The translations under genes were made by a program, and so were the position numbers. 64,000 nt of DNA from Halolamina pelagica (GTDB lineage Archaea; Halobacteriota; Halobacteria; Halobacteriales; Haloferacaceae): NCBI RefSeq assembly GCF_900115675.1, contig NZ_FOXI01000002.1, positions 62,001-126,000 of the forward strand, written 5' to 3'. Shown here piece after piece: positions 4,562 through 33,029 of the stretch. The notes beneath the pieces are model-generated. The model was not told the DNA's origin. It ran no database searches and saw only the letters and a program-made list of their open reading frames with translations. How positions within the stretch are numbered: the stretch's first letter is position 1; each line of letters begins with the position of its first letter.

Positions 4562-5946
4562 TCGAGTTCGTCGACGAGGTCGTCGGCGACGCCGGTGTAG
4601 CCGGCGGGCGTGAGCGCCCGCAGTTCCGTGCGCACGTCCTCCTCCACGTCGAGCTCGTCGAACAGCTCGCGGAAGTCAGCGAGCGTCACGCGCTGCCCCC
4701 GGGTCAGCTCCTTCACGCGCTCGTAGGCCTCGGTGTCGCCCTCGCGGCGGAGGATCGTCTGCACCGCCTCGCCGATGATCTCGGGCGTGGCCTCCAGTTC
4801 CTCACGCATCACCTGCTCGTTGGGGACGACTTTCCCCAGCCCGGTCGCCGTCTTGCGGTAGCCGATGAGGCAGTGGGCGAAGGCGGCGCCGACGTTGCGC
4901 TTGACCGTCGAGTCCGAGAGGTCCCGCTGAAGCCGCGAGGAGGTGACGTAGTCCCGGAGGAAGGTCAGGTCCGAGTTGGCCTTCGAGAGGTTCCCCTCGC
5001 TGTTCTCGAAGTCGATGGGATTGACCTTGTGGGGCATCGTCGACGACCCGGTCTCGCTCGACTCGCTCTCCTGGCCGAGGTAGCGGTCCGAGACGTAGCG
5101 CCACACGTCCCGATCGAGGTCGAGGAGGACGTTGTTCACGCCGGCGAGCGCGTCGAACAGCGCCGCGAGGTCGTCACAGGGGTTGATCTGGGTCGCGAGC
5201 GGGGTGTGCTCGAGGCCGAGGTCGTCGACGAACGCGGCCGAGAACGCCCGCCAGTCCACATCGGGGTAGGCGGCGACGTGGGCGGCGTAGGTGCCCGAGG
5301 CACCGGCGAGTTTCCCGGAGAGGGCCTCCACGGCCGCCCGCACCCGCGCCTCAGCGCGGCCGAGGCGGGCGGCGACGACGGCCATCTCCTTGCCGAACGT
5401 CGTCGGCGTCGCCGGCTGGCCGTGGGTGCGCGCGAGCATCGGCACGTCCCGGTACTCCCGGGCCATCCTGGTCAGCGCGTCACGGATCGCCTCGATGGCG
5501 GGCAGGAGGACCTCCTCGACGGCGCCCTTGGCGTTCAGGCGGTGCGCGAGGTTGTTCACGTCCTCGCTGGTGAGCCCGAAGTGGATCCAGGGGTGGAGGC
5601 GCTCGGGCGTCTCGGTCCGGAGGAAGTACTCGACGGCCTTCACGTCGTGGCGGGTGGCCGCGAACTCCTCGGTCCCCTCGGTCTCGATTCGTTTGACCAG
5701 CGCGGCGTCGTCGGCGTCGAACCCGTCGACGACCTCGCGGAGGTGGGCGCGCTCCTCGGGGGTGACTTCGCAGTCGACGGCCTCGGCGTCGGCGAGCGCG
5801 AGCAGGTACTCGACCTCGACGCGCAGGCGTGCCTCGATCAGCGCGGCCTCGCTGGCGTACGGCACCAAATCCGCGGTCTTGCCGGCGTACCGGCCGTCGA
5901 GCGGCGAGACGGCCGCGAGCGGCGACTCGCGGGGGAGATCGTTCAT
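4558..5946 (-). CDS. purB: Adenylosuccinate lyase
   Basis: A 462-residue member of the fumarase/aspartase superfamily. It cleaves SAICAR to AICAR and adenylosuccinate to AMP, releasing fumarate. The family signature SSTMPHKVNP (flexible catalytic loop with the catalytic serine) is present, as are an N-terminal SPLDGRYAGK and a THGQPATPTTFGKE segment with the conserved histidine. It is divergent from the purNH fusion 177 bp away, so two purine genes share an intergenic control region. Confidence 0.96.
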   Translation of the reverse strand: MNDLPRESPLAAVSPLDGRYAGKTADLVPYASEAALIEARLRVEVEYLLALADAEAVDCEVTPEERAHLREVVDGFDADDAALVKRIETEGTEEFAATRHDVKAVEYFLRTETPERLHPWIHFGLTSEDVNNLAHRLNAKGAVEEVLLPAIEAIRDALTRMAREYRDVPMLARTHGQPATPTTFGKEMAVVAARLGRAEARVRAAVEALSGKLAGASGTYAAHVAAYPDVDWRAFSAAFVDDLGLEHTPLATQINPCDDLAALFDALAGVNNVLLDLDRDVWRYVSDRYLGQESESSETGSSTMPHKVNPIDFENSEGNLSKANSDLTFLRDYVTSSRLQRDLSDSTVKRNVGAAFAHCLIGYRKTATGLGKVVPNEQVMREELEATPEIIGEAVQTILRREGDTEAYERVKELTRGQRVTLADFRELFDELDVEEDVRTELRALTPAGYTGVADDLVDELD

Positions 5947-6123
5947 ACCCGAGGCTCACCCGGGCAGTCACAAAACCCTGCCGGAGCCGCGGCGCCCGTG
6001 AGGCATCCACGTGTATACGTTCGTCGAGATATGCCCCGTTCTCCCCTCGATCTATCCTCGAACGTGCCTATCGGCCGGGTCCCGACCGCAACGCTCTTTG
6101 TCCGTTCGCCCGGGAACTCGACC

Positions 6124-7740
6124 ATGAAGATCGCCGGTATCGCGGGCAACCGCGGCCGAAACCTTCTGCACATTGCGAACATTTCGCCCGGCGGCGCCGA
6201 GCTCTCGGTCGTCGTCGCGAACGGCGAGGACGCGCCGGTGCTCGACGACGCCGCGGAACGCGGGATCCCGAGCGTCGGTGTCGAGCGCGGGGACGACGAG
6301 TCACGCGAGTCCCACGAGGAACGGCTCCTCGACGCGCTCGGCGAGCACGAGTTCGACGTGGTCTGTCTGGACGGGTTCATGCGGGTCCTGAGTCCGGAAT
6401 TTCTGGACAGCGTGGACACTGTGCTCAACGTCCACCCGTCGATCCTACCGGCGTTCCCCGGCGCCGACGCCCACGCGCAGGTCCTCGACGCGAACGTCCG
6501 GACGACGGGAGCGACGGTCCACATCGCCACCGAGGCCGTCGACGACGGGCCGATCGTCACCCAGGAGACCGTCCCGGTGTTCGAGGACGACGACGAGGCC
6601 TCGCTGAAGGAGCGCGTGCTCCACGAGGCGGAGTTCGAGGCCTACCCACGCGCAGTCCGGTGGTTCGCCGAGGGCGCCGTCGAGGTCGAACGTGACGACC
6701 AGGGGCGCCCGGTCGGCGTCGACCTCGCGACCGACGTTCGCGGCGACCTGCCCGCGCGCCGGACCGTCTCGAACCGCCGCGAGGACGACCTGCGCTACGG
6801 GGAGAACCCCCACCAGGACGCCGCGGTCTACGCCAGCGACGCGAGCGAGGAGCCCAGTGTGGTCCACGCGCCCCAGTTGAACGAGGGCGCGAAGGCGCTG
6901 TCGTACAACAACTACAACGACGCCGACGGCGCGCTGAACCTGATCAAGGAGTTCGAGGCGCCGGCGGCGGCGGTCATCAAGCACACCAACCCGGCCGGCT
7001 GTGCGACCGCCGACACGCTGGCGGACGCCTACCGCGACGCGCTCGCGACCGACGCCAAGTCCGCCTTCGGCGGCATCGTCGCGCTCAACCGCGAGTGCGA
7101 CGCCGAGACCGCCGGGGAGATCGTCGACTCGTTCAAGGAGGTCGTCGTGGCGCCCGGCTACACCGACGACGCGCTGGACGTGCTCACCGGGAAGGACAAC
7201 CTCCGCGTGCTCGACGTGGGCGACCGAACCGAGGACAACACGCTCGGCCCCGCGGACCGCACGGAGCGCTTCACGGAGAAGGCGCTCGTGGGCGGCCGGC
7301 TCGTGCAGGAGCGCGACCGCTCCACGATCACCCGCGAGGATCTGGAGGTCGCCACCGAGCGCGAACCCACCGAGGAACAGCTCGAGACGATGCTGTTCGC
7401 CTGGAAGGTGCTCAAACACGTCAAGTCCAACGGTATCCTGATCGCCGACGGCACTGAAACCGTCGGTGTCGGGATGGGGCAGGTCTCCCGCGTCGACGCC
7501 GTCGAACTGGCGGCGATGAAGGCCGAGAAGGACGCCGACGGGAAGTCCGCCGAGGGCGCCGTCGTCGCCTCGGACGCGTTCTTCCCGTTCCCGGACGCCG
7601 TCGAGGCGGCCGCCGACGCCGGCGTCGAGGCGGTGATCCAGCCCGGCGGCTCCGTGAACGACGACGACGTGATCGAGGCCGCCGACGAGCTGGGGCTGGC
7701 GATGGTGCTGACCGGGCAGCGCGCGTTCCGTCACGACTGA
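6124..7740 (+). CDS. purH: PurN-PurH fusion: GAR/AICAR formyltransferase
   Basis: A 538-residue two-domain protein. Residues 1 to about 195 are PurN-like (GAR transformylase fold) with the catalytic triad positions Asn102, His104 (NVHPS) and Asp140 (AVDDGP). Residues about 215-538 form the AICAR transformylase domain of PurH, with LRYGENPHQ and the catalytic Lys286-His287 (KHTNPAG). The MGS-like IMP cyclohydrolase domain of bacterial PurH is absent; archaea use PurO instead, which is not in this window. ATG 6124 is the only start placing the PurN domain at the N terminus. The open frame extends far upstream only as antisense to purB. Confidence 0.92.
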   Translation: MKIAGIAGNRGRNLLHIANISPGGAELSVVVANGEDAPVLDDAAERGIPSVGVERGDDESRESHEERLLDALGEHEFDVVCLDGFMRVLSPEFLDSVDTVLNVHPSILPAFPGADAHAQVLDANVRTTGATVHIATEAVDDGPIVTQETVPVFEDDDEASLKERVLHEAEFEAYPRAVRWFAEGAVEVERDDQGRPVGVDLATDVRGDLPARRTVSNRREDDLRYGENPHQDAAVYASDASEEPSVVHAPQLNEGAKALSYNNYNDADGALNLIKEFEAPAAAVIKHTNPAGCATADTLADAYRDALATDAKSAFGGIVALNRECDAETAGEIVDSFKEVVVAPGYTDDALDVLTGKDNLRVLDVGDRTEDNTLGPADRTERFTEKALVGGRLVQERDRSTITREDLEVATEREPTEEQLETMLFAWKVLKHVKSNGILIADGTETVGVGMGQVSRVDAVELAAMKAEKDADGKSAEGAVVASDAFFPFPDAVEAAADAGVEAVIQPGGSVNDDDVIEAADELGLAMVLTGQRAFRHD

Positions 7741-28157: not shown

Positions 28158-28526
28158 ATGCCGGCAACCAGCGTCGACGCCGAGCGAACGTACGACGACG
28201 AACAGTTCTCCGCGCGTGGGTTTTTCCAGACCGAGCGCTCCAAGACCGTCTGTGGCTACTTCGAGCCCGGGCAGTTCATCCCGGTCCACGCGCCCGACAG
28301 CGACGTGACCGTCGTCGTCCACTCGGGCCACGGCGTCGTCCGCGACGGCGGGCGGACCCACGAGGTCGGCCCCGGCTCCGTCGTGACGGTGCCCGCCGGC
28401 GAGAAGCGCGGGGTGAAAGCCGGCGAGGAGCGACTGGAGGCCGTGCTCGTGACGGCGCCGCCGCCGACCGACGCCGAGCACGAGCCGGTCCGGAGGGGAC
28501 TCGAAAACGACGAGTTCGAGCCTTGA
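28158..28526 (+). CDS. Cupin-domain protein
   Basis: A 122-residue single-domain beta-barrel. Cupin motif 1 is approximated by GQFIPVHAPDSDVTVVVHSGHG and motif 2 by VGPGSVVTVPAGEKRGVKA. Both canonical metal-binding histidine sets are incomplete, so metal binding is uncertain. Role unknown. Its stop is one base away from the convergent membrane-protein gene. Confidence 0.8.
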   Translation: MPATSVDAERTYDDEQFSARGFFQTERSKTVCGYFEPGQFIPVHAPDSDVTVVVHSGHGVVRDGGRTHEVGPGSVVTVPAGEKRGVKAGEERLEAVLVTAPPPTDAEHEPVRRGLENDEFEP

Positions 28527-28527
28527 A

Positions 28528-29271
28528 CTACCCTTCGTCGACCATCGCGAGCCGGCGGGTGTACCGCCGGACCAACGCGCCGTCCTCGTCCTGGAGCACG
28601 ACGGTGAACCGCTTCTCCCCGGTGACGGTCTCCATCTCGCGCTCGTGGACGGTGAACTCGTAGGGCGGATCGTCGTCGACGAGCAGCCGGTCGTCGCCGC
28701 TCCGGACCTCGATGCTGTCGACACCGTCGGTCTCGCTCAGGTGGCAGTGGACCGCGGTCCCGTTCTCCGTCGTCGACTTCGTACAGAGCAGGTCCGGGCT
28801 CACGTCGGCGCCGCCGGACTCGAGCGCGCTCTGGAAGTCGACGACCATCGGTCCGGCCGGGAACGTCCCCAACACGACGACGGCGACCAGAAACAGGGCG
28901 AGCATGCCGTTGGGCAGTCGCTTCCCGAGGCGCTGACGGACGCCCGTCGCCCGCCGCCACCGGAACGCGAGCGGAAGCACCACGAGGTGGTGGATCGGCC
29001 CGTAGAGGATCAGCAGGAACCCGTACGCCATCGGGTACCGCAACAGCTCGAGCGAGGGGTTGTACGAGTACAGCAGGTTCGCGCCGGCCCAGAGGAAGAA
29101 GCCGAAGAACACCAGCCCGCCGGCTTTCAGTACCTGCCAGCTGGTCGAGTTGGCGTAGTAGACCGTCTTGAGCGAGCTCCAAGCGTTGCCGACGAGGTCG
29201 CGAACGCCGACCGACGGCTCCTGGGGGCTCGGCCCGTCCTCGCCGTCGACGGGAGCGTCACCCATCGTCAC
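28528..29271 (-). CDS. Membrane protein at the end of the NO reductase-like operon, unknown function
   Basis: A 247-residue protein with three transmembrane spans (about residues 48-68, 78-103 and 122-143) followed by an approximately 100-residue domain that begins around a cysteine (DLLCTKS) and contains CHLSETDGV. The C-terminal domain is predicted to be beta-rich and extracytoplasmic. The ATG overlaps the ctaB stop by 4 nt, so it is coexpressed with ctaB and the heme-copper subunits and may be an assembly or accessory protein. I do not recognise the family. Confidence 0.7.
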   Translation of the reverse strand: MTMGDAPVDGEDGPSPQEPSVGVRDLVGNAWSSLKTVYYANSTSWQVLKAGGLVFFGFFLWAGANLLYSYNPSLELLRYPMAYGFLLILYGPIHHLVVLPLAFRWRRATGVRQRLGKRLPNGMLALFLVAVVVLGTFPAGPMVVDFQSALESGGADVSPDLLCTKSTTENGTAVHCHLSETDGVDSIEVRSGDDRLLVDDDPPYEFTVHEREMETVTGEKRFTVVLQDEDGALVRRYTRRLAMVDEG

Positions 29272-30326: not shown

Positions 30327-32039
30327 TCAGGGGCCGATCTGCCAGATCGTCGAGAGCAGGTACCAGTTCAGCGCCCAGAGCGTGACGAAGGCGCCGAGGA
30401 ACACGAGACAGAGCGTGAACGTCCCGCGCATGCTGTAGGCGTGGGCGGCTTTCCCCTCGCCACCGTCGGCGGCCGTGCGTCGAACGTCGCCCACCGGGCC
30501 GCCCTCGAACGGTTCCCCGAACAGCAGCGAGGCGAGGGCGACGACGACGAACAGCGCGCCGCCGAGGATGGACAGGATCGCGGCGACGCCGAACACCACG
30601 AAGAACGGTTTGGCCGGCGAGAAGCTGAACGCCGTCCCGGGGATGTCCATCACCGAGGGGTGACGCCGGGGCACGCCGAACAGGATGCCCGTGTACATCA
30701 TCATCAGGACGGTCAGCCCCATCGCGCCGCCGTAGAGGAACGGCTGGATCCTCGCGAGCGGGCCGAACGACCAGTCCCGGCCGAACACCAGCCTGAGGAC
30801 GTAGTAGCCCAGCCCCATGAACGCGAGTGTCGTCCCGGTGGCGACGGTCGCGTGGAAGTGCCCGACCGTCGCGAGCGTGTTGTGCCAGGTCATGTTGAGC
30901 TGCATCTGGCCCATCATGACGCCGGTGATCCCGCCGAGGAAGCCGAAGAGGATGATGCTCAGGATCGTCGCGGAGAAGCCCGGATCGTCCCAGGGGCTGC
31001 TCCAGAGCCAGCCGAACAGGCCGCCGGCTTTCCCCTTCGCACGGCGACCGACCTCGAGGCCGGCCGGGATCGCGAAGGCGTGGATCATGCTCGCCACCAC
31101 CGCCCCGTAGGCGGCGTAGGAGGTGTTCCACATCCGCCAGCCCGCGGAGACGACGGGGTCGGACATCAGGTGGTGGGCCGCCCCCATGTTGATGAAGAAC
31201 AGGTAGAGCACGAACGCCGCCCGGGAGACCTTCTGGCTCGCGACGACGGCGCCGCCGACGACGTGGGTCAGGAAGTACCAGACGGTGATCATCGCCAGCA
31301 GGTTGATCTGCTGGCTCCCGTGGCCGATGATCCAGTACATCTGTCGGTAGAACGCCGGGTCGAGGCTCTCGAAGTAGCCCACGCGCCACAGCAGCGTCGG
31401 CACGTAGGTGATCAGCCCGCCCAGCAGCGCTTCGAGCGCGACGACGCTCGTGATGAACGCGCCGAAGGTGACCAGCGGGAGCGTCTCGCTCGGGTGCTCC
31501 TGCTGGTGGTTCCAGAGCGTCGCGAGGAACGGCACCGCGGCGACGATGGCGCCGAGGACGAACACGGTCGCGCCCAGGTAGAACTGCCAACTCGACGGCA
31601 GCGGGACGTACGACGTGAGCAGCGGCGCCTGGTTTGGGTACTCGGTCAGCAGGATGGCGGCGTTCACCAGCACCGCGCCCGCCGCCATGATCACCCACCC
31701 GACCTTCGCCACGCTGGGCAGCGAGAGTCGGCGGCCGAGCACGAACGGGCCGCCCACGTAGAGGATGGCGATCTCCATGAACACCATCCAGAAGATGAGC
31801 AGGTTCCAGGCGTGGACGCTCAGGTACGTGTAGAAGTCGCCCGCCGAGAGCAGGCCGACCAGCTCCCAGCGGGTCATCGCGACCGCCAGCGCGAAGACGC
31901 CCCCGATCGCGAGCGCGAGGATCGCGGTCAACCCGTACAGCTTCACCATGTCCTCGGCGGACTTGTGGATGGTGAGGCCGGTGACGTTACACTCGCGGAA
32001 CCCGTCGTCGTCGTACTCGTAGGTGCTGAAGCCGAACAT
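30327..32039 (-). CDS. Heme-copper oxidoreductase subunit I lacking the catalytic tyrosine (probable NO reductase, eNOR-like)
   Basis: A 570-residue, roughly 14-span protein. All metal ligands are present: low-spin heme His76 and His396, CuB His240 and His289-His290, high-spin heme His394 (GHFHAT). The covalent His-Tyr cofactor of A- and B-type oxygen reductases needs Tyr four residues after His240, but residue 244 is Gln (GHGSQQ). The alternative C-type tyrosine position six residues before His289 is Ile283. Glu89 and Glu203 lie in membrane helices near the site. This pattern fits the B-family-derived NO reductases proposed from sequence (eNOR group) better than an oxidase. Annotation pipelines would call it cytochrome c oxidase subunit I. 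Confidence 0.85.
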   Translation of the reverse strand: MFGFSTYEYDDDGFRECNVTGLTIHKSAEDMVKLYGLTAILALAIGGVFALAVAMTRWELVGLLSAGDFYTYLSVHAWNLLIFWMVFMEIAILYVGGPFVLGRRLSLPSVAKVGWVIMAAGAVLVNAAILLTEYPNQAPLLTSYVPLPSSWQFYLGATVFVLGAIVAAVPFLATLWNHQQEHPSETLPLVTFGAFITSVVALEALLGGLITYVPTLLWRVGYFESLDPAFYRQMYWIIGHGSQQINLLAMITVWYFLTHVVGGAVVASQKVSRAAFVLYLFFINMGAAHHLMSDPVVSAGWRMWNTSYAAYGAVVASMIHAFAIPAGLEVGRRAKGKAGGLFGWLWSSPWDDPGFSATILSIILFGFLGGITGVMMGQMQLNMTWHNTLATVGHFHATVATGTTLAFMGLGYYVLRLVFGRDWSFGPLARIQPFLYGGAMGLTVLMMMYTGILFGVPRRHPSVMDIPGTAFSFSPAKPFFVVFGVAAILSILGGALFVVVALASLLFGEPFEGGPVGDVRRTAADGGEGKAAHAYSMRGTFTLCLVFLGAFVTLWALNWYLLSTIWQIGP

Positions 32040-33029
32040 CTAGACCACCTCCACGACGCCCTTCATCCCCATGCCGAGATGGGGCTCGCAGTAGTACTTG
32101 TACACGCCGCCCGTCTCGAACGTGTGTTCGAAGCTGAACCCCTCGTTCTCGATCGACTCGTGGCCCGCCCAGTCGGCGCCGTCTGGCTGGGAGTCGACCA
32201 GCACGTTGTGGGTGTTCGACGCCCACTCGAACGTGACCGTCGTCCCCTGTGACACCGAGACGGCCGGCGGGTCGAAGGCGTACGGGCCGCCGTTGCCCTC
32301 GGCGCCGACGGTGACGGTGACCTGGTCGGAGCCGGTCTCGTCGACGGTCGTCCCGTCGTAGTTCCCGGTTGCGCCGCCGCTGGCGTCGCCGGTGAACCAG
32401 CCGCCGTAGTCGGCGTTCCCGCCGTCGCCACTTGATCCGTCGCCGCCCTCCGCCGGCGGCGAGACGGCGGACTCGTCGTAGTCCCGCACGAGGAACTTCC
32501 CGTGCATCGAGCGGTGGCCCTCGCCACAGAACTCGTTGCAGACCACGTGGTAGGTGCCCGGGTCGTCGAAGGACATCTCCAGCACCCACTCGTAGCCCGG
32601 CAGGATCTGCAGCGAGATCTGCTGGCTCAGGTTGTCCGCGTTGCGCACGGAGAACCCGTGTTGCACGTCGTAGGAGCCGAGGTGGAACCGGTAGGTCTCC
32701 CCCGGCTTGAGCACGGCCGGGAGTCCGTCCCAGCCCCACTGGAGCGCCCCGACGTACACGTCGTTCCCGGCGGGGACGAGCAGCTCCTCGCCGTCGACGG
32801 TCAGGGTGCCCGCCGACCGTTTGTACCCCTGGACCTTCTCCCGGAGGCGCTCGGTGGAGACCTGGTAGGTCTGGCCGGTCTGGTTCTGCTCGCCGAACTC
32901 GGTCCAGCCGAGCATCCAGCCGAACAGCGTCAGCGCCCACACGCCGCTGATGCCCAGCCAGATGGACTCACGGCGATTGATCTTCTCGCTCCACCAGTCG
33001 CCGTCGGGGGAGGTGAGTGGTGAGTCCAT
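32040..33029 (-). CDS. Heme-copper oxidoreductase subunit II: CuA domain fused to a halocyanin
   Basis: A 329-residue protein. One N-terminal membrane anchor (about 24-42) is followed by a CuA cupredoxin domain with His124, Cys164, Cys168, His172 and Met175 (VVCNEFCGEGHRSM). A Gly/Asp/Ser-rich linker (about 190-232) leads to a second cupredoxin, halocyanin-like, with His274, Cys314, His317 and Met320 or Met322 (YYCEPHLGMGM). Electrons would pass from the tethered blue-copper domain to CuA and on to subunit I. The subunit I gene follows directly after this stop. Confidence 0.88.
   Translation of the reverse strand: MDSPLTSPDGDWWSEKINRRESIWLGISGVWALTLFGWMLGWTEFGEQNQTGQTYQVSTERLREKVQGYKRSAGTLTVDGEELLVPAGNDVYVGALQWGWDGLPAVLKPGETYRFHLGSYDVQHGFSVRNADNLSQQISLQILPGYEWVLEMSFDDPGTYHVVCNEFCGEGHRSMHGKFLVRDYDESAVSPPAEGGDGSSGDGGNADYGGWFTGDASGGATGNYDGTTVDETGSDQVTVTVGAEGNGGPYAFDPPAVSVSQGTTVTFEWASNTHNVLVDSQPDGADWAGHESIENEGFSFEHTFETGGVYKYYCEPHLGMGMKGVVEVV

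Follow-up and report, generated by a model that had tools for sequence, protein, structure and literature searches.

The stretch of DNA analyzed here, a 64,000-nucleotide window of the Halolamina pelagica genome, harbors a four-gene operon whose heme-copper subunit I very probably works as an NO reductase of the eNOR class, as judged from its sequence features, its phylogeny and its linkage in genomes. The sequence-only reading had proposed a probable NO reductase of this class, and that proposal is strongly supported by a diagnostic glutamine, by the tree, by linkage to nirK set against a B-type control, and by genomes that have nirK and no qNOR. The eNORs are an already described family; the finding is correct, and the family to which it points is known. 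No description of either the fused halocyanin donor or the gene for a 247-residue membrane protein in the operon was found in the literature covered.

The eNORs are defined by this glutamine and are found in Natronomonas and other Halobacteria, where they are commonly annotated as oxidases (PMC8756737). Citing papers attribute the family to Hemp and Gennis 2008 and Murali et al. 2024, and PMC11388526 places it among the biochemically characterised NORs and relates it to the B family. Genome surveys include eNOR (PMC12569097), and a survey of haloarchaeal denitrification has qNor as the only NO reductase class there (PMC8400030). The search for literature on haloarchaeal eNORs returned nothing beyond these four papers and PMC8305020, and no measurement of activity for a haloarchaeal member of the family.

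Organization of the operon

The four genes follow one another in the same direction on the minus strand, in the order subunit II, subunit I, ctaB and the gene for the 247-residue protein (Table 1). The coding region of subunit II abuts that of subunit I, the start of ctaB is 3 nt downstream of subunit I, and ctaB is in turn overlapped by the fourth gene. A cupin gene at 28158-28526 on the plus strand was considered as a fifth member and rejected, as it is on the opposite strand and was found only in locus L007.

Table 1. Features of the eNOR operon, with positions in the window.
Feature	Position	Strand	Basis
247-residue membrane protein; three hydrophobic segments and a weakly Ig-like C-terminal part; candidate third eNOR component	28528..29271	-	4-nt overlap with ctaB; linkage to eNOR
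Heme O synthase (CtaB), second copy in the genome	29268..30323	-	TIGR01473, 207.5 bits, just below the cut-off of 210.3
eNOR subunit I, 570 residues; heme-copper catalytic subunit	30327..32039	-	PF00115; eNOR clade; diagnostic residues
Gln243-Gln244 codons; Gln244 at the catalytic tyrosine position	31308..31313	-	Alignment; translation
Glu89 codon, invariant in eNOR	31773..31775	-	Alignment; translation
eNOR subunit II, 329 residues; single membrane helix at the N terminus, then a CuA cupredoxin domain with a halocyanin domain fused at the C terminus	32040..33029	-	CoxB and halocyanin NCBIfam matches; one hydrophobic segment; CuA motif
Halocyanin domain; His-Cys-His-Met blue-copper ligand pattern	32046..32369	-	TIGR03102, 113 bits, cut-off 93.8
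CuA ligand motif CNEFCGEGHRSM in subunit II	32505..32540	-	Sequence

Subunit I, whose reading frame the sequence-only reading had delimited exactly, belongs to the heme-copper superfamily by its Pfam match (PF00115, 173.6 bits). It is claimed by no NCBIfam model (its CtaD score is 64.6 bits, where the cut-off is 670.75). Its near relatives carry "cbb3-type" or "b(o/a)3-type" oxidase annotations, so that the earlier wording, mislabelled as an oxidase, is fair. The coordinates of the key codons were confirmed through translation. The counterpart in Halolamina salifodinae is 90% identical to the protein of the window, and that in a genome of the same genus 94-95%. Across many genera the gene is 60-93% identical and its neighbourhood is fixed, which argues that the observation does not reflect chance.

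The CuA ligands are present in subunit II, which lies directly upstream of subunit I. Fusion of the CuA and halocyanin domains was seen in nine loci including that of the window (among them L007-L010, L012, L014, L015 and L055) and was not found in the other loci examined; the fusion is therefore specific to one lineage, the subclade of haloarchaea to which the window belongs. In Defluviimonas and Thermomicrobium, too, a heme O synthase gene comes after eNOR. A stronger ctaB homologue is located elsewhere in the Halolamina genome, at C17:273399; this other ctaB (G000:C17:273399-274622, minus strand) stands beside a ctaA-like match, apparently within one 550-residue frame.

Residues of the active site

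Residues were compared in an alignment of 84 heme-copper proteins, made up of 54 eNORs, 13 B-type and 12 A-type oxidases, three cNORs, one qNOR and one FixN, the last being the C-type row, picked by eye from an unannotated stretch of pSymA. His76, His240, His289, His290, His394 and His396 match the positions of the ligands to heme and CuB in the A- and B-type oxidases and the NORs, in agreement with the earlier statement that all of these histidines are in place. The position four residues after His240, that of the cross-linked tyrosine in oxygen reductases and of the glutamate metal ligand in cNOR and qNOR, is glutamine (Gln244) in the window protein and in all 54 eNOR rows, versus tyrosine in every B-type (13/13) and A-type (12/12) row and glutamate in all four c/qNOR rows; glutamine is not found at this position in any A-type, B-type or c/qNOR row. 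Gln243 is also invariant among the eNOR rows, and the Gln-Gln pair is kept in three further eNORs at 41-43% identity. The C-type tyrosine position, six residues before the CuB histidine pair, is occupied by Ile283, with isoleucine in 53 of the eNOR rows and leucine in one. Both replacements of the tyrosine had been pointed out from the sequence alone, and both hold.

The suggestion that glutamates at positions 89 and 203 are as expected for an NO reductase site is at best half borne out. Glu89 is found in 54 of 54 eNOR rows, including those that are only ~40% identical, as well as in three more proteins at 41-43% identity, and oxidase rows never have glutamate here. Position 203 varies (glutamate in 44 eNOR rows, glutamine in seven, and threonine, phenylalanine or tryptophan in the three deepest) and is thus not a defining residue. 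The active-site glutamate of cNOR and qNOR sits at the Gln244 position itself, so that the pair does not fit what is expected of an NO reductase site. One proton channel is predicted for the eNORs; of the K-channel positions, Tyr255 and Ser317 are kept and His320 replaces a threonine.

Individual proteins depart from the common pattern at other sites. In the eNOR-like protein L097, encoded within 4983-6668 of the Thermus thermophilus plasmid pTthSNM6-6b, a lysine replaces the low-spin-heme histidine at the His396 position (GHFK). In an eNOR subgroup composed of Halorutilus and metagenome Euryarchaeota (L030, L031, L037 and L051), Val-Arg replaces the near-constant His386-Asn387 that precedes the heme ligands, and L036 has Gln-Asn at these positions.

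Phylogenetic position

A tree of 64 proteins was built under LG+C20 with a quick search, in which support is given by SH-aLRT only. The eNORs form a single group (SH-aLRT 100) and the B-type oxidases another (99). These are sister groups (98), with the A-type oxidases outside both. The eNORs are hence a fully supported group of their own beside, and not within, the B-type oxidases, and a placement of the window protein within a clade of proven O2 reduction was looked for in this tree and not found. The protein is nested among haloarchaeal eNORs, which group with sequences from Rhodothermus, Salinivenus and Bacteroidota, and a single clade holds it together with the Rhodothermus and haloarchaeal eNORs (SH-aLRT 100). 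Thermus, Thermomicrobium and Defluviimonas plasmid sequences form deeper eNOR branches. Branches are long for the C-type and qNOR rows, and very long for FixN, so the relations among A-type, C-type and NorB proteins are left out of the argument and the placement of FixN carries no weight as evidence.

Haloarchaeal ba3 enzymes, such as that encoded at C17:28263 in the genome of the window, fall in the B group. The purified ba3 oxidase of N. pharaonis is the Cba enzyme, NP_2966A (Table 1, PMC8305020). The coxA3 protein of the same organism (NP_4296A), which that table gives as a terminal oxidase 28% identical to the ba3 of Thermus, is a possible eNOR.

Association with nirK and NO metabolism

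Co-occurrence was scored in 145 haloarchaeal genomes, with eNOR called over 700 bits and NirK over its curated cut-off. NirK is present in all 27 eNOR carriers versus 47 of the 118 non-carriers (Fisher 9e-10). The sample is phylogenetically clustered, with eNOR in 11 genera, and since relatedness inflates the Fisher value, carriers were also counted by hand within genera. Over the seven genera that have both carriers and non-carriers, the exact P that all eNOR carriers have NirK is ~1.8e-5, with the fragmented genome G091 scored against the hypothesis. The genes are also close to one another: 11 of the 27 carriers have nirK no more than 10 kb from eNOR. The 113 B-type genes with the tyrosine, 64 of which are in nirK genomes, include not one with nirK at such a distance. 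In Bacteroidota (L017-L019), nirK is ~1 kb from eNOR subunit I and ~0.4-0.5 kb from subunit II. One contig from this phylum, JAJCYR010000091.1, carries two near-identical eNOR/nirK loci ~100 kb apart (L018 and L019), which represent a duplication or an assembly artefact.

Twenty-one of the 145 genomes have nirK and no qNOR, and eight of these carry eNOR, which is the only NOR found there. This is opposite to the statement that haloarchaea have qNor only (PMC8400030), and gene-based predictions of NO and N2O release from salt ecosystems would miss part of the NO-reducing capacity. The genome of the window itself encodes NirK, NosZ, a qNOR (783-residue frame) and tyrosine-bearing oxidases of the aa3 and ba3 types. 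By this gene content Halolamina pelagica is a predicted denitrifier, in which oxygen respiration would be supplied by other genes. Its nirK is on another contig than the eNOR operon, and the presence of qNOR means that NO removal in this organism need not rest on the eNOR gene.

The plasmids of Thermus thermophilus provide a separate observation. The eNOR-like gene L097 adjoins genes for an Rrf2 regulator and for DUF542 and AraC-type proteins, and the latter two share their accessions (WP_014511216 and WP_014511217) with the neighbours of norCB in strain AK1 (L105). The identical flanking accessions indicate that one slot holds eNOR in some Thermus plasmids and norCB in those of another strain, so that one NO reductase has naturally been exchanged for the other.

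Alternative functions

One refinement of the NO reductase reading, which is not exclusive of it, is that NO reduction would be the main job of the enzyme, with O2 also being reduced to some extent and the enzyme working at low oxygen. Many eNOR carriers are oxygen-respiring haloarchaea, and eNOR is reported to reduce NO under microoxic conditions (PMC11388526); no turnover data were found for any haloarchaeal member, and we consider this refinement rather unlikely. It is highly improbable that the protein is a B-type-like oxygen reductase that lacks the canonical tyrosine, perhaps with Tyr308 or Tyr311 as a substitute radical donor, for although the Thermus ba3 oxidases are the closest solved structures, CuA in subunit II and CtaB in the operon are as in oxidases, and both tyrosines are conserved in eNOR (54/54 and 53/54 rows) and absent in B-type rows, the eNOR group falls outside the B-type oxidases, its exclusive linkage to NirK is absent from the tyrosine-bearing B-type genes, the genome already has two ordinary oxidases, and eNOR appears as a characterised NO reductase in PMC11388526.

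The 247-residue membrane protein

The product of the fourth gene has no match of its own in Pfam or NCBIfam at 0.001, and a profile of its family returned nothing above noise among PDB sequences. The Ig-like signal is weak (Pfam Big_7, best 1e-4, in 10 of 29 family members), and the family has one YwiC match in Pfam, at 0.008. Its invariant residues are Trp31, Tyr38, Lys49, His95, Cys163 and Cys176.

The protein is found in 26 of the 27 haloarchaeal eNOR carriers among the 145 genomes; in the remaining carrier, G034, the contig breaks off within the eNOR gene. The sole non-carrier with a match, G036, has a relic in the form of a 120-residue piece with a stop. In a sample of 148 genomes from the Rhodothermus phylum, each of the five same-clade carriers has the gene adjoining eNOR; three carriers from a deeper clade (42-45% identity) lack it, and one non-carrier gives a partial match. 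A search next to L053 and L097-L099 did not reveal the protein. Its occurrence thus tracks a single clade of eNOR in two domains of life, and on account of this strict linkage it is probably a subunit or an assembly factor of eNOR. It offers a concrete candidate for an eNOR part that has been missing, and a clean genomic marker of its clade.

It is possible, if a little short of probable, that the eNOR of haloarchaea and of the Rhodothermus group is a three-subunit enzyme. The 247-residue protein, with its Ig-like part and two invariant cysteines, would then be an obligate subunit so far undescribed, or else a factor dedicated to inserting copper or heme. In the subclade of the window, the halocyanin fusion would make the enzyme a self-contained electron wire to NO.

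Proposed mechanism

Taken as an NO reductase, the enzyme encoded by the four-gene operon would be a membrane-bound member of the eNOR family. Subunit I would convert two molecules of NO to N2O at the heme/CuB centre, with Gln244 in place of the cross-linked tyrosine of the oxidases. Electrons would enter via the CuA of subunit II, with the halocyanin domain as the presumed donor; because this domain is fused to subunit II, the route would run from halocyanin to CuA, to the low-spin heme and on to the heme/CuB centre. The adjacent ctaB gene suggests that the active-site heme may be o- or a-type, unlike that of cNOR and qNOR. The K-channel-like row of Tyr255, Ser317 and His320, together with Glu89, points to proton uptake through the protein and possibly to energy conservation. 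In physiological terms, NO made by NirK would be removed or respired.

Comparison with known systems

The operon shares with the eNOR family a glutamine in place of tyrosine at His+4, a CuA-type subunit II directly upstream, and a subunit I like that of the B family. The family occurs in both Halobacteria and Rhodothermus, and the Rhodothermus loci L025 and L028 are 63-64% identical to the window protein in subunit I. The characterised eNOR enzyme is reportedly that of Rhodothermus marinus. The subclade of the window differs in the halocyanin domain fused to its subunit II, and the operon has its own ctaB and the 247-residue membrane protein.

With the B-type oxidases, represented by Thermus ba3 and the haloarchaeal CbaA, the window protein has in common the fold family, the heme/CuB histidines, a CuA subunit II, and Tyr255 and Ser317. 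However, identity is ~28-33%, the window protein has glutamine for tyrosine and the invariant Glu89 and His320, and it is a sister and not a member of the group. The cNOR and qNOR enzymes (NorB, NorZ) share the proposed reduction of two NO to N2O and the co-occurrence with NirK, whereas they have glutamate at His+4, no CuA subunit and a distant position in the tree. Finally, sNOR, gNOR and bNOR (CuANOR) are likewise B-family-derived NORs with a cupredoxin subunit II, and are set apart by asparagine or aspartate at the tyrosine position (Table A4, PMC8756737), where the eNOR of the window has glutamine.
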